From assembly GCF_003967355.1 (NCBI RefSeq), contig NZ_BIFH01000051.1, positions 1-42,336 of the forward strand: a stretch of DNA of 42,336 nt, in the 5' to 3' direction. The notes under the pieces are model-generated. The model was given only the letters and a program-made list of their open reading frames with translations. It had not been told where the DNA came from and did no database searches. The stretch is from Embleya hyalina (GTDB taxonomy: Bacteria; Actinomycetota; Actinomycetes; Streptomycetales; Streptomycetaceae). Below, piece by piece: positions 9,352 to 16,068 of the stretch. A program made the translations under genes and the position numbers. Each line of letters starts with the position of its first letter. Position 1 is the stretch's first letter.

Positions 9352-9687
9352 ATGCCGTCCGAGTCGCGCCAGCCCCGCATGCGGCCTGTGCCGCTGTTGT
9401 TCGAGCCCTCGGTCGCCGAACCGCCCGACGAACGCTTCTTCGACCTGGACGATCTGACCGACCCCCAGGAGGTGCTGACCCGCTCGACCGACCTGGCCGA
9501 GGCGTTCCGGGCGGCGGCCGACCGGGCGGCGGACTACCAGGCGATGGCCGCGGCGCGGATGGCGGACCCGAATCGGTTCGACCATCTGACGACGGCTCAG
9601 GTCGCGGCGCGCGCGGGGTGGGGCGAGGAATACACGGCGAAGATGATCGAGCACGGCCGACGGCTGCTGCTGGAGCGCGGCGAGTAG
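9352..9687 (+). CDS. Small conserved actinobacterial protein, function unknown
   Basis: 111 residues, acidic N-terminal half (ERFFDLDDLTDPQEVLTRSTDLAEAFR) and a C-terminal half (MADPNRFDHLTTAQVAARAGWGEEYTAKMIEHGRRLL) that looks like a small helical, HTH-like segment. I recognise the overall pattern from Streptomyces hypothetical proteins but know no function. ATG 9352 follows AAGGA at 8-nt spacing; the frame extends to 9055 without conserved character. It converges on the helicase gene, separated by a hairpin. Confidence 0.65.
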   Translation: MPSESRQPRMRPVPLLFEPSVAEPPDERFFDLDDLTDPQEVLTRSTDLAEAFRAAADRAADYQAMAAARMADPNRFDHLTTAQVAARAGWGEEYTAKMIEHGRRLLLERGE

Positions 9688-9773: not shown

Positions 9774-11117
9774 TCAGGGTGTCAGCGACACCCGGTGCCT
9801 GCCGAGTTCGGCCAGCACCGCCTGGTTCGCCTCCCAGCCGTCCGGGAACGACACCGGCACGCCGAGGTGGACCGGGTTCGCGGTCGGGTGCGCGTCGAGC
9901 AGTTCGGGGATACCCGCCCGGGCGACCACCAGGCACGCGTGCCGATGCCGGGAGGCCAGTACGCACAGCCGGCCCGTCTCCAGGTGGAACTCGGTCGCGT
10001 CGCGTCGCCCGGACAGCGGATGCAGCACCACGGTCACGTCGAACTCGCGCCCCTGGAGCCGGTTCGCGGTGTCCACCACGATCTCCGTCGCGCCGAGGTC
10101 GCGCAGCGCCGACTCGACCCGGGCCCGCTGCTCGCGGTGGCTGACCCCGATCGCGATCCGGGACGCGTCCAGTGGCACCCCGGCGGGGGTACGCTCGCCG
10201 ACCGCCGTCCCGCCGCGCGCGAGCAGCCGCGCGGCCAGCGTGGCCACCGCCCGTACCGCCTCCTCGTCGGCCGCCCCGGTGAACCGCGCGGGCAACTCCA
10301 GCAGGCCCCACCCGGATCCGGCCGCGACGTCGACCACCGTGTCGTACGCGTCGTGCTCCCGCGCCGCCTCGAAGCGCAGCGAACGCTCGCCGGGGCCGGT
10401 CCCGGAGCGGAACGGGGTGAACGGGTAGAACGCGTCCGACACCAGCGGCGCCGCGCTCGCGGGCAGCCGCCAGGACACCGGCAACCGGTGCACCGGCAGG
10501 TCCGGGTTGTGCCGGCGGAGCACCACCACCGCGCTCTGCGAGGGGTCGTAGCTCAGGCTGTGCCAGCGCGAGGTGTCCACGGTGGCGAACGGGTCGAGTT
10601 GGCCGGGATCGCCCACGAACAGCGCCCGATCGAACAACCGCGCCACCAGAAGCAGCGCGTCGGAGCGCATCTGGTACGCCTCGTCCACGATCGCCCACGG
10701 CCAGCGCCGGTCCTGGACCAGCGCCCACTTGGCGGCCGTGGCCACCACCACCGCACAGGCGTCCAGTGCCTCGGCCTTCTCCGCGTTCGACACCGAGGTG
10801 CCCACCAGGGCGGGCGGCAGCCGGTAGCCGGTGGCGGACAACCGCCCCACGGGCAGGTGCGGATGCTCCTCGGCGAGCCGGACCAGCAGGTCGTCGACCT
10901 GGTTGTTGGTCTGCGCCACGATCATCAACCGCTCGCCGGACGCGGCCAGTTCGCCGGCGGCGCGGACCACCAGGGTGGACTTGCCCGCGCCGGGCGGCGA
11001 GTCGACCACGACGCCGCGATGCGCCCCCGAGCCGAGGTCGGCGAGCACCGCGGCGGTCGCGGCGGCGGCGAGCGCGGCCGGGTCGCCCTGCGGGGCGCGA
11101 GTGTGCGCGGTCGTCAC
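9774..11117 (-). CDS. UPF1/DNA2-like superfamily 1 helicase
   Basis: 447 residues with SF1 helicase motifs in order: motif I SPPGAGKST (about 40-48), motif Ia AQTNNQVDDLL, motif II IVDEAYQM (D145-E146), motif III FVGDPGQLDPF, motif IV region SWRLP, motif V NRLQGREFDVTVVL and motif VI RLCVLASRHRHACLVV. The Ia and V motifs match the UPF1/DNA2 (SF1B) subgroup rather than UvrD. At this length it is essentially a bare helicase core without large accessory domains. GTG 11117 overlaps the stop of the preceding gene as GTGA. With the upstream PD-(D/E)XK nuclease it would supply the motor half of a split DNA2- or AddAB-like helicase-nuclease. A longer open frame to 12836 is a shadow. Confidence 0.85.
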   Translation of the reverse strand: MTTAHTRAPQGDPAALAAAATAAVLADLGSGAHRGVVVDSPPGAGKSTLVVRAAGELAASGERLMIVAQTNNQVDDLLVRLAEEHPHLPVGRLSATGYRLPPALVGTSVSNAEKAEALDACAVVVATAAKWALVQDRRWPWAIVDEAYQMRSDALLLVARLFDRALFVGDPGQLDPFATVDTSRWHSLSYDPSQSAVVVLRRHNPDLPVHRLPVSWRLPASAAPLVSDAFYPFTPFRSGTGPGERSLRFEAAREHDAYDTVVDVAAGSGWGLLELPARFTGAADEEAVRAVATLAARLLARGGTAVGERTPAGVPLDASRIAIGVSHREQRARVESALRDLGATEIVVDTANRLQGREFDVTVVLHPLSGRRDATEFHLETGRLCVLASRHRHACLVVARAGIPELLDAHPTANPVHLGVPVSFPDGWEANQAVLAELGRHRVSLTP

Positions 11118-12658
11118 GACCACTCCTCCAACGCGTCGTCGTCGGGCTCGGGTCCGGTCGCGGTCGCCGAGTCGGGCTCCGAGCCCGGCTCGGGCGGCGG
11201 GCCGCCGTGCGTCCAGGGGGTGTCCTCCACGGCGGGCCAGTCGGGGCTGCGCCGAAACTCGGCGATCAGCGAGGTCCAGCACAACACCTCGCCCCGCTCG
11301 GGCACGCTGCCCGGCTTGGGCGCCTTGCCGCCGCCCATCCCGCCGAACAACTCCAGCTCCATCCGGCCGGGTTCGTTGACCAGCACCCGGGCCTTGGCGT
11401 CGGGGCGCTCCACGCAGGCGAGTTCCGTACCGGGCCCGAACAGCGGCTCGTCCTCGGTGCGAAAGACGAGCAGTGGCCGCGGTCGGGCGGTCTTCTTGCC
11501 CGGTTCGGTGACCATGCGCTCCGCGTCCACCGCGATCAGTTCGCCCCGGAATGCCTCGCCGGCCAGCCGCACGGCGGCCATCAACAGCGGGTCGTCGCGC
11601 ACCTGTTCGGCGTCGAGTCGGGCCTGGGCCCGCTCCCGGCCCGCGAGTTGGGCGGCGGCCGAGATCGCGCCGGGCACCCTCGGCTGCGGGCGCGATTCGG
11701 GGTCGGCGAGGTCGGCGGCGAAGAAGCTGTACGAGGCCCGGTCGGCTTCCCAGCGCCCGGCCACCGAGGCGCCCGCCGGCAGGGCGGAGAGCAGGTCCAC
11801 GCCGCGCCACATGCGATCCCAGGTGGGCATCAACTCGGCGGCCAGCGCGTCCCGGATCGCCTGCTCGGCTCGCCGCTCGCGCTCGCCACGGGCGGCGTCC
11901 TCGTCCGACTCCCGCTCGGCGGCCACCGCCTCGTCGAACGCGGTGATCAGCGGCACGAGCCGTTCGTCGAACGCCGGATCGGTGGCCGGGCCCGCCGTCG
12001 GACCACCCTCCGCCTCCCGCGCCGCCTCGTCCCCGCGCCGACCGGCGGGCGGGTCGATCCAGGCCAGCAGCGAGGCCAGGTCGCCGTCCTCCATCGCGCT
12101 CTGCCCGGTCGCCCATGCCTGGGTGAGCAGGTCGGTCATCGCGAGCAGCACACTCGATCCGGGCACACCGGCCCGATCCGCGAGCCACGTACTCCACCGG
12201 CCGAGCAGCGGCACCCCGGCGGGCACCGCGAACTCGCCGTCGGTGCGCCGGAATCGGGTGGAGCGGCCGAGCAGGCGCAGATACTCGATCCCGCCCGCGG
12301 TGGGCACCAGCACCTGCGGCGCGTCCAGGCTGCGCTCGTAGGGATCGTCGCCCCGGCGCTCGATCGTCTCGGTCTCGGCGGCGAACGCGCCCAGGTGGGG
12401 CAGCAGTCGCCCGGCCAGCTCCGCCGCGTGCGCGAACCGGCGGTCGCGGTCGCGCGGTTGCGGTACGGCGAGCAGGTGCGGCCGGTCGCGATCGGTACCG
12501 ACCAGGACGGCGAGCGGCGCGAACGCCTCGCCCGCGAGCACGTACGGCACCAGCACCATCGGACGCGCGGACAGGTGCCGGTGGCGCACCGTCGCCGCCG
12601 GCTGCGCGTACCCGGTCGCGGCGGCGCGCAACCGGCCGAGCGCGGCGATCGTGCTCAC
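11114..12658 (-). CDS. Uncharacterised protein between nuclease and helicase
   Basis: 514 residues with no domain that I recognise. It begins VSTIAALGRLRAAATGYAQP, continues with an alpha/beta-looking region (LVPYVLAGEAFAPLAVLVGT, APQVLVPTAGGIEYLRLLGR) and a long helical, charged middle (about 220-330: many E/R with AEQAIRDALAAELMPTWDRMW). It ends in an acidic tail rich in D/E/P (PEPDDDALEEWS). GTG 12658 overlaps the nuclease stop as GTGA, and its own TGA overlaps the helicase GTG, so the three genes are translationally coupled. It probably bridges or loads the nuclease and helicase (inference from context only). Confidence 0.8.
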   Translation of the reverse strand: MSTIAALGRLRAAATGYAQPAATVRHRHLSARPMVLVPYVLAGEAFAPLAVLVGTDRDRPHLLAVPQPRDRDRRFAHAAELAGRLLPHLGAFAAETETIERRGDDPYERSLDAPQVLVPTAGGIEYLRLLGRSTRFRRTDGEFAVPAGVPLLGRWSTWLADRAGVPGSSVLLAMTDLLTQAWATGQSAMEDGDLASLLAWIDPPAGRRGDEAAREAEGGPTAGPATDPAFDERLVPLITAFDEAVAAERESDEDAARGERERRAEQAIRDALAAELMPTWDRMWRGVDLLSALPAGASVAGRWEADRASYSFFAADLADPESRPQPRVPGAISAAAQLAGRERAQARLDAEQVRDDPLLMAAVRLAGEAFRGELIAVDAERMVTEPGKKTARPRPLLVFRTEDEPLFGPGTELACVERPDAKARVLVNEPGRMELELFGGMGGGKAPKPGSVPERGEVLCWTSLIAEFRRSPDWPAVEDTPWTHGGPPPEPGSEPDSATATGPEPDDDALEEWS

Positions 12659-13800
12659 CCGACACCGCCCAGCGCCTCGTGCCGCAGCGCCTGGGCGCGG
12701 CGGAGCAGCCGGGCCACGTCCTCCTGGCCGGGCTCGGGGGCACGGGTGCCGTCGGCGAGCGCCAGCGCGGTGCCGATGTCGTCGATTCCGCCGAGCGCGC
12801 CGCGCACCGAGGTGCCCAGCGTGCCCACGTCGCCACCGGTGCCGCAGGCGCGGGCCTCGTCCCGGCAGAACAGCGCGAGTTCGCAGGCGGACAGGCAGTC
12901 GGGGAGGTAGGCGGCGGGCACCCGGGCGACGGCCGCGCCGACCCGCTCCTCGGCGACGTCGAAGGTCAGCCCCTCGGGAAGTTCGGCGAACAGTTCCTCG
13001 ACCCCGGACAGTCGGGCCAACCGCCTCCGGGTGGTGGCCAGTTCGCGGCGCACGTCGAGCACCACGGCGATCGGGCGGTTGGCGAAGTCCTGGGCGCACA
13101 CCAGCACGATGTCGGTGGACACCGACTCGGGATCCAGGCCCAGTTCCTCGGCGAGCCCGCGCAGCGCGTGTACGTATACCGCCGCCTGTCGGGTGGCGGA
13201 GGCCAGCTTGCCCGGGTCGGCGGAGCCGTCGATGATCGCGAAGGACTTGATCTCCACGACGTGCAGTCGGCCGGCCACCCGGCAGGCCATCGCGTCGGGT
13301 TCCAGGTAGGCGCGCCGGCCGGCCACGTCGAGCGGGAGCAGCGGGTGGTCCAGGATCGCGCAGGCGTCCGGATCGCCGCTCGCCGCGCGCAGGAGCGCCT
13401 CGCGGGTGCGGGCCACCCGTTCCTCGCGGCCGGGGCGGGCGGTGGGGCCGGTGGGGCCGCCCCGGTCCACGTCGACCAGCGCGCCGTCGTCGGGGTCGGC
13501 GCCCAGGACCTCGGCGAGGAGGCGGCGCAACTCCCGCCCGTCGTCGGCCTTGACCCGGGCCTCGAACACGTTGCCGCGGCCGATGGCGAACGGGGAGCGG
13601 CCGTAGCGGGCGGGGAAGCCGAGGCGTTCGGCCAGTACGGTCTTCTCGATGCCGGCCGCGTCCAATACGCCGCGGCGGGCGCAGCCCGGGTTGGCCGCGA
13701 GGGCGGCCACCGTGCGGGCGTTGTGATTGCGGGTGGGCAGTTCGCCGCGCAACTGCTCCAGCCTGCCGGCGATCGCGCCGGTCGTACCCGTCGTGCCCAT
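12655..13800 (-). CDS. PD-(D/E)XK nuclease with Fe-S-type cysteine cluster (RecB/Cas4/AddB-like)
   Basis: 381 residues. A RecB-type nuclease core can be read: E80 in RGNVFEARV, D169 in EPDAMA, E183-I-K185 in VVEIKSF, and the QxxxY motif at Q205-Y209 (QAAVYVHAL). C40 (NPGCARRG) lies before the core, and C301, C305, C311 and C318 lie after it. This split arrangement resembles the 4Fe-4S staple of Cas4, AddB and DNA2, although the C-terminal spacing is C-x3-C-x5-C-x6-C instead of C-x2-C-x5-C. Expected activity is single-strand or end-directed DNA cleavage. ATG 13800 has only a weak ribosome binding site. The gene lies 74 bp after the HTH-TPR regulator on the same strand and is coupled to the next two genes. 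Confidence 0.82.
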   Translation of the reverse strand: MGTTGTTGAIAGRLEQLRGELPTRNHNARTVAALAANPGCARRGVLDAAGIEKTVLAERLGFPARYGRSPFAIGRGNVFEARVKADDGRELRRLLAEVLGADPDDGALVDVDRGGPTGPTARPGREERVARTREALLRAASGDPDACAILDHPLLPLDVAGRRAYLEPDAMACRVAGRLHVVEIKSFAIIDGSADPGKLASATRQAAVYVHALRGLAEELGLDPESVSTDIVLVCAQDFANRPIAVVLDVRRELATTRRRLARLSGVEELFAELPEGLTFDVAEERVGAAVARVPAAYLPDCLSACELALFCRDEARACGTGGDVGTLGTSVRGALGGIDDIGTALALADGTRAPEPGQEDVARLLRRAQALRHEALGGVG

Positions 13801-15976: not shown

Positions 15977-16050
15977 GCGCCGCTAGCTCAGTTGGTTAGA
16001 GCAGCTGACTCTTAATCAGCGGGTCCGGGGTTCGAGTCCCTGGCGGCGCA
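15977..16050 (+). tRNA. tRNA-Lys (anticodon CTT)
   Basis: A 74-nt cloverleaf. The acceptor stem GCGCCGC pairs with GCGGCGC, with discriminator A at 16050. The D arm contains AGCTCAGTTGGTTAGAGC. The anticodon arm CTGACT-CTT-AATCAG reads AAG codons. The T arm has TTCGAGT with a five-pair stem including one G-U. The 3' CCA is not fully encoded (ACC then G), so it must be added by nucleotidyltransferase. Confidence 0.95.
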
Positions 16051-16068
16051 CCGCAAGAAAGTTGTACG

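Follow-up and report, generated by a model that had tools for sequence, protein, structure and literature searches.

Gene layout of the locus

We analyzed a 42,336-nucleotide stretch of Embleya hyalina DNA (contig NZ_BIFH01000051.1, positions 1 to 42,336; hereafter the window) from a genome of 12.05 Mb, and focused on three minus-strand genes that follow one another in the order nuclease, middle protein, and helicase (hereafter the triad). As the initial annotation had stated, the genes run head to tail, and at both GTGA junctions the next start codon overlaps the preceding stop codon by 4 base pairs (bp). The features of the triad are the following (aa, amino acids):

12655..13800, minus strand: gene 1, predicted RecB/Cas4-type PD-(D/E)XK nuclease with a candidate four-cysteine staple, 381 aa
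13681-13683, minus strand: staple cysteine C40 of the nuclease (34/35 aligned rows, masked in one)
13246..13302, minus strand: putative active-site stretch E167-P-D169 ... E183-I-K185, then Q205xxxY209 (alignment of 35 rows)
12865..12897, minus strand: staple cysteines C302, C306, and C312 (35/35 rows)
12655..12658, minus strand: GTGA overlap between nuclease and middle genes, 4 bp
11114..12658, minus strand: gene 2, middle protein, with a predicted N-terminal alpha/beta domain followed by a stalk and beta-barrel, 514 aa
11222..11683, minus strand: stalk and beta-barrel, residues 326-479 of the middle protein (predicted model)
11114..11117, minus strand: GTGA overlap between middle and helicase genes, 4 bp
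9774..11117, minus strand: gene 3, Upf1/DNA2-like helicase motor, 447 aa (Pfam AAA_11 and PDB profile matches)
10974..11000, minus strand: helicase Walker A motif SPPGAGKST (G43, A44, G45, and K46 invariant in 30 rows)

A predicted staple-type nuclease, a predicted stalk-and-barrel protein, and a Upf1-like motor

The predicted structure of the nuclease has a PD-(D/E)XK fold, and its best PDB match is Cas4 (VIA-align comparison). Pfam PDDEXK_1 matches weakly, in 6/32 members of the family (best E 0.026), while a PDB sequence-profile search with the nuclease returned two engineered proteins and nothing else. Residues E167 and D169 are present in 35/35 rows, with E183 in 32/35, K185 in 33/35, and Q205 in 34/35; by analogy to RecB-family motifs, the stretch from E167 to K185 presumably forms the active site. 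On the basis of the model, the protein qualifies as a predicted RecB-family PD-(D/E)XK nuclease.

The initial annotation had also counted five cysteines placed like an iron-sulfur staple, and this holds for four of them. The nuclease has eight cysteines in total, among which C40, C302, C306, and C312 occur family-wide at staple-like places, whereas the fifth (C235) shows no variation across an initial 16 rows and falls below 90% in the wider set. Their spacing, C...CX3CX5C, has one residue more than the CX2CX5C of a fused helicase-nuclease of related actinomycetes (the TM0106-type protein), a spacing that is also typical of Cas4, AddB, and DNA2. The four conserved cysteines, which span the nuclease domain, thus represent a candidate iron staple with a spacing that is off by one residue. 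Some loci carry unusual nucleases: two (L053 and L054) encode a protein without the catalytic residues, with all four cysteines kept and a pPIWI-RE trio adjoining, and in two others (L016, 7917-9611; L017, 7917-9632) a long insertion splits the conserved halves of the gene.

The helicase core was recovered as described, i.e. as a UPF1/DNA2-like superfamily 1 (SF1) protein. Its best Pfam match is AAA_11 (9.3e-12), with UvrD_C_2 at 0.13, and its PDB profile matches are led by SMUBP-2 (4.8e-11) and DNA2 (1.6e-10). The Walker A, DEAYQ, GDPGQLDP, and DTANRLQG motifs are invariant or nearly so among 30 helicase rows. By these sequence features the protein belongs with the Upf1-like SF1 motors, and it would move 5' to 3' if it shares the polarity of this family.

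The middle protein was said to lack any recognizable domain. For sequence libraries this is correct, as those searched gave no domain match (PHROGs at best E 0.28) and a PDB sequence-profile search found none. At the level of structure, however, the claim does not stand: the predicted model (pLDDT 71, pTM 0.55) returned no significant match with Foldseek by itself, but model comparison shows a stalk and a beta-barrel, as found between the nuclease and the motor of DNA2 and Bad, a bacterial DNA2-like enzyme.

Conservation and distribution of the triad

The nearest named relative is Embleya scabrispora (nuclease 85% and helicase 94% identical), and we took the family of the window to be that of this species, Streptomycetaceae. 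A scan with the nuclease identified 16 related loci, with all three genes in 15/16 and the contig of the sixteenth stopping before the nuclease stop codon. A profile of the middle protein matches 49 of the 296 genomes of the class; one of these (G217; 20.6 bits, internal stop) was treated as spurious, which leaves 48 triad genomes. This profile returned 30 loci, including the window's own, and the triad was present in 29/29 loci from other genomes. Twenty further places were read, of which 16 represent additional genomes and four are second copies; G284, G152, and G217 were left out. The nuclease and middle genes are found in 20/20 of these places, with the helicase alongside in 18/20. The three genes are conserved together, and recur as a unit more often than chance would produce. 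A distant subtype, found in three genomes of one genus, has the same gene order, with the helicase of one in two frames. According to a hand tally with start codons set by rule, nuclease and middle genes overlap by 4 to 13 bp in 39/47 loci, and middle and helicase genes do so in 31/47, plus one overlap of 70 bp.

Several loci show a displaced or split helicase. In L136 and L137 (genomes G095 and G196, from one genus) a distance of 36 and 49 kb separates it from the nuclease and middle genes, with no change of strand; G196 has a helicase fragment between the triad parts, and the distant helicases look like the outcome of a large insertion. In L067 (4096-7398) the helicase matches are split over two reading frames, reflecting a frameshift or an assembly error.

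The triad is present in 26/27 other sampled genomes of the window's family (by listing order). Neighbors that recur at related loci, named partly by eye and in the case of PAP2 by Pfam, include an NsdA-like regulator, a histidine phosphatase, PAP2, and a small open reading frame (ORF). The window copy is therefore near-universal in its family and has a conserved neighborhood. In the window, an NsdA-family regulator gene precedes the triad with a gap of 74 bp, and a tRNA-Lys gene (ctt) is located just past it (15977-16052, plus strand). The small ORF lies on the other side:

9352..9687, plus strand: conserved small ORF (about 111 aa) past the helicase, with a homologue in 11/16 related loci

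It is convergent with the triad in the window and codirectional with it in Streptomyces loci such as L008.

Accessory copies lie beside defense genes

A second triad copy is found in four genomes of the family, all from one genus, and two Streptomyces plasmids carry one each. The copy of G101 adjoins the Wadjet II genes JetA, JetB, and JetC, together with SbcC-/SbcD-like genes and a trio of pPIWI-RE type, and that of G243 adjoins SbcC-/SbcD-like genes, with a partial JetC of Wadjet III at the contig end. The G123 copy neighbors HmaA, B, and C and a pPIWI-RE trio, the G199 copy a BPTD_3080 restriction gene and pPIWI-RE, and SbcC/SbcD-like genes are also found beside the G249 copy. The plasmid of Streptomyces sp. 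NBC_01244 encodes, in order, an SMC-family ATPase, SbcD, a fourth gene, nuclease, middle protein, and helicase, followed by DUF3375, DUF4194, ATP-binding, and JetD-domain genes (checked by profiles). The WAC00288 plasmid has the same arrangement, except that short ORFs, apparently remnants, stand where the SMC-family ATPase and SbcD genes would be. On two Streptomyces plasmids, in L152 (NZ_CP108489.1, 746-17079) and L154 (NZ_CP027023.1, 2318-14021), the fourth gene and the triad are directly upstream of a codirectional Wadjet-like operon, at a distance of 153-154 bp by annotation.

The fourth gene, which precedes the nuclease, encodes about 270-330 aa with a coiled coil and then a winged-helix-like stretch, as judged by eye. 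Besides 12/20 of the fetched places, the distant subtype and the NBC_01244 plasmid also carry it, and its protein is unmatched in G000, G018, G039, and five genomes of two other families (three of f18 and two of f37). A Pfam scan gave no match for the three proteins tested.

A tree of the motor, built from 36 rows by a quick method and with five unsure forks, places the plasmid copies together with G249, pairs G101 with G243, and puts G123 and G199 together near the core copies. Because the accessory copies fall in separate groups, recruitment to defense neighborhoods looks repeated.

A role in phage or plasmid defense had been suggested from the outset, and one could extend it to all copies, the window's included. 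Known defense genes (Wadjet genes, pPIWI-RE trios, HmaABC, or a BPTD_3080 restriction gene) adjoin 6/6 accessory copies examined, a count that has no background rate for random loci beside it. In addition, Bad, the nearest characterized bacterial DNA2-like enzyme, adjoins a methyltransferase gene in Geobacilli (PMC7430649). By contrast, the window copy is found in nearly all genomes of its family within a conserved neighborhood, PADLOC matched 0/10 window neighbors tested, out of about 28 predicted ORFs, and the middle protein is unmatched among 50,697 phage records. Context supports a defense role for the accessory copies only; for the window copy we find this explanation unlikely. In agreement with the initial annotation, PADLOC assigns the triad to no named defense system. 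Membership in Mokosh or PLuB was rejected, as the similarity concerns the helicase alone (PADLOC MkoA 3e-10 and others) and the nuclease and middle protein are unmatched.

Plasmid relatives of the middle protein and helicase

Searching with the helicase by tblastn identified 52 plasmid records, of which 39 are from Rhodococcus, Mycobacterium, or Mycolicibacterium. Seven regions (L150, L151, L153, and L155-L158) share a conserved cluster of an AAA ATPase (called MoxR in one), a VWA-like protein, a small ORF, a middle-like protein of 365-404 aa, and the helicase. The triad nuclease profile has no match in these regions; an unrelated-looking PDDEXK gene is found in L153, about 4 kb downstream on the opposite strand.

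The kinship of the middle-like protein rests on a profile-profile comparison with the middle protein, which aligned 354 columns with a score of 46.2 (E 4e-5, program probability 70%), compared with 16-17 for other families, 15.9 for a reversed profile, and at most 21.0 for 20 shuffles. The hidden Markov model of the middle protein gave no match in the seven regions with default filters, and weak collinear matches without them (best E 0.002). The middle-like protein was not found in the 296 class genomes, a result that is uninformative given the absence of a positive control among them. As this plasmid pair occurs without the triad nuclease, the middle protein and motor seem to be closely coupled, with the nuclease looking like a partner of the two.

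The same pair could indicate that the three genes form one operon with separate roles and no common complex, i.e. a Cas4-like nuclease next to a Upf1/Senataxin-type helicase that acts with its barrel subunit on RNA or R-loops. Ighmbp2 and Senataxin act on RNA, and the catalytic residues of the nuclease are lost in three rows, in line with this view. It is, however, at odds with the gene overlaps and with the adjacency of nuclease and middle genes in all triad loci that reach both, and we regard it as improbable.

The triad and the fused enzyme rarely share a genome

The fused TM0106-type enzyme is above cut-off in 99/296 genomes, including 2/48 triad genomes (G031 and G249) vs 97/248 others (P = 2e-7, a value that ignores shared ancestry). 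Three further triad genomes (G101, G153, and G163) have weak matches below the cut-off. In one other family, the corresponding counts are 1/61 (G358, with the distant subtype) vs 26/59 (P = 5e-9, again ignoring shared ancestry), and G320 matches by fragments of both. Since the two rarely share a genome, the simplest reading is that they perform the same job.

We also considered that the triad could be a fission product of the actinobacterial fused protein, in which case the middle protein would retain, in its N-terminal half, an RNase H-like domain that has lost its active site. The motors are related (hhalign E 1.2e-20), and the best value obtained for the nuclease profile against the fused protein is E 0.13. 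One comparison of the middle and fused proteins gave no match; in others, the whole profile scores 23.1, where 20 shuffles of another profile reach 21.0, and segments score 13.4 vs 22.6 and 19.4 vs 19.8, not above shuffles. Overall, a fission origin appears rather doubtful.

A probable three-chain DNA2-like helicase-nuclease

The gene order, motifs, and conservation, together with the predicted nuclease and barrel folds, make it likely that the triad is a three-chain DNA2-like helicase-nuclease, with the window copy serving chromosome maintenance and accessory copies recruited to defense neighborhoods. Its subunits would be an iron-staple PD-(D/E)XK nuclease, a stalk-and-barrel protein, and a Upf1/DNA2-type SF1B motor. 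The three outcomes that the initial annotation had named as refuting its view (genes not conserved together, a nuclease lacking the PD-(D/E)XK fold, a match to a described system) were checked, and none was obtained. We infer that the three proteins assemble into one complex, in which single-stranded DNA may pass from the motor along the barrel into the nuclease tunnel. With the motor translocating 5' to 3', the nuclease would cleave single-stranded DNA with a 5' end, in the form of flaps or of resected ends, and the window copy most likely substitutes for the fused enzyme of its relatives.

More broadly, DNA2 might exist as exchangeable subunits, with the stalk-barrel protein and motor plugged into different machines, a view that we find plausible though short of probable. 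Combined with the nuclease, the pair would act in chromosome upkeep; with SbcC/SbcD-like (Rad50-Mre11-like) proteins, the fourth protein, and Wadjet, in anti-plasmid or anti-phage end processing. A third machine would involve MoxR-like and VWA genes on large actinobacterial plasmids, without the triad nuclease.

DNA2 threads DNA through its nuclease ahead of its own motor, and with both activities in a single polypeptide it is difficult to examine how cutting and moving are coordinated. A version that is naturally divided into three chains would permit nuclease, barrel, and motor to be removed or swapped singly. The analysis further suggests what an unannotated core protein of Streptomyces, part of a triad near-universal in sampled Streptomycetaceae, may do. 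It connects a DNA2-like enzyme to SbcC/SbcD-like genes in bacteria and puts forward a candidate Wadjet partner.

Comparison with known systems

In the literature covered, which lacks most subscription journals, we recognized no publication treating the triad. The TM0106-type fused protein (TIGR03491) resembles it in combining a RecB-like nuclease with a related motor in related actinomycetes, but is a single chain of about 1130-1560 aa (in 19 read) with an RNase_H_2 domain. Membership in TIGR03491 was rejected: the nuclease and middle protein have no NCBIfam match at E 1, and the helicase has none to TIGR03491. AddAB and AdnAB likewise have a RecB-family nuclease and SF1 motors, with an iron staple in AddB; their motors are UvrD-like and fused to the nuclease, whereas the triad motor is Upf1-like and in its own ORF. 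Separate ORFs and the lead of AAA_11 over UvrD_C_2 exclude the triad from this group. Cas4, the closest structural match of the nuclease, is a stand-alone staple nuclease, while that of the triad comes with a helicase and a barrel subunit as partners. The PADLOC scan of the 10 neighbors brought up no CRISPR genes, and no wider search was aimed at them.

Eukaryotic DNA2 has nuclease, stalk-barrel, and two RecA domains in order, with an Fe-S RecB-family nuclease and a Upf1-like motor (PMC4716839). The triad shares the order of these parts, a nuclease with a candidate staple, and the Upf1-like motor. DNA2, as in animals, is a single chain with an OB domain; the triad has three chains, no recognized OB domain, and the CX3CX5C spacing. 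In the loci read, nuclease and motor are in separate ORFs, so that the one-chain organization of DNA2 and Bad is lacking. Bad from Geobacillus stearothermophilus is described as a single chain with an iron-staple nuclease, an SF1B helicase, and a central domain for which its authors report no known homology. They also describe another class of such enzymes, from Mycobacteria and Rhodococcus (PMC7430649), which may correspond to the fused TM0106-type protein. Judged by this published description, Bad is the nearest characterized enzyme among those found.
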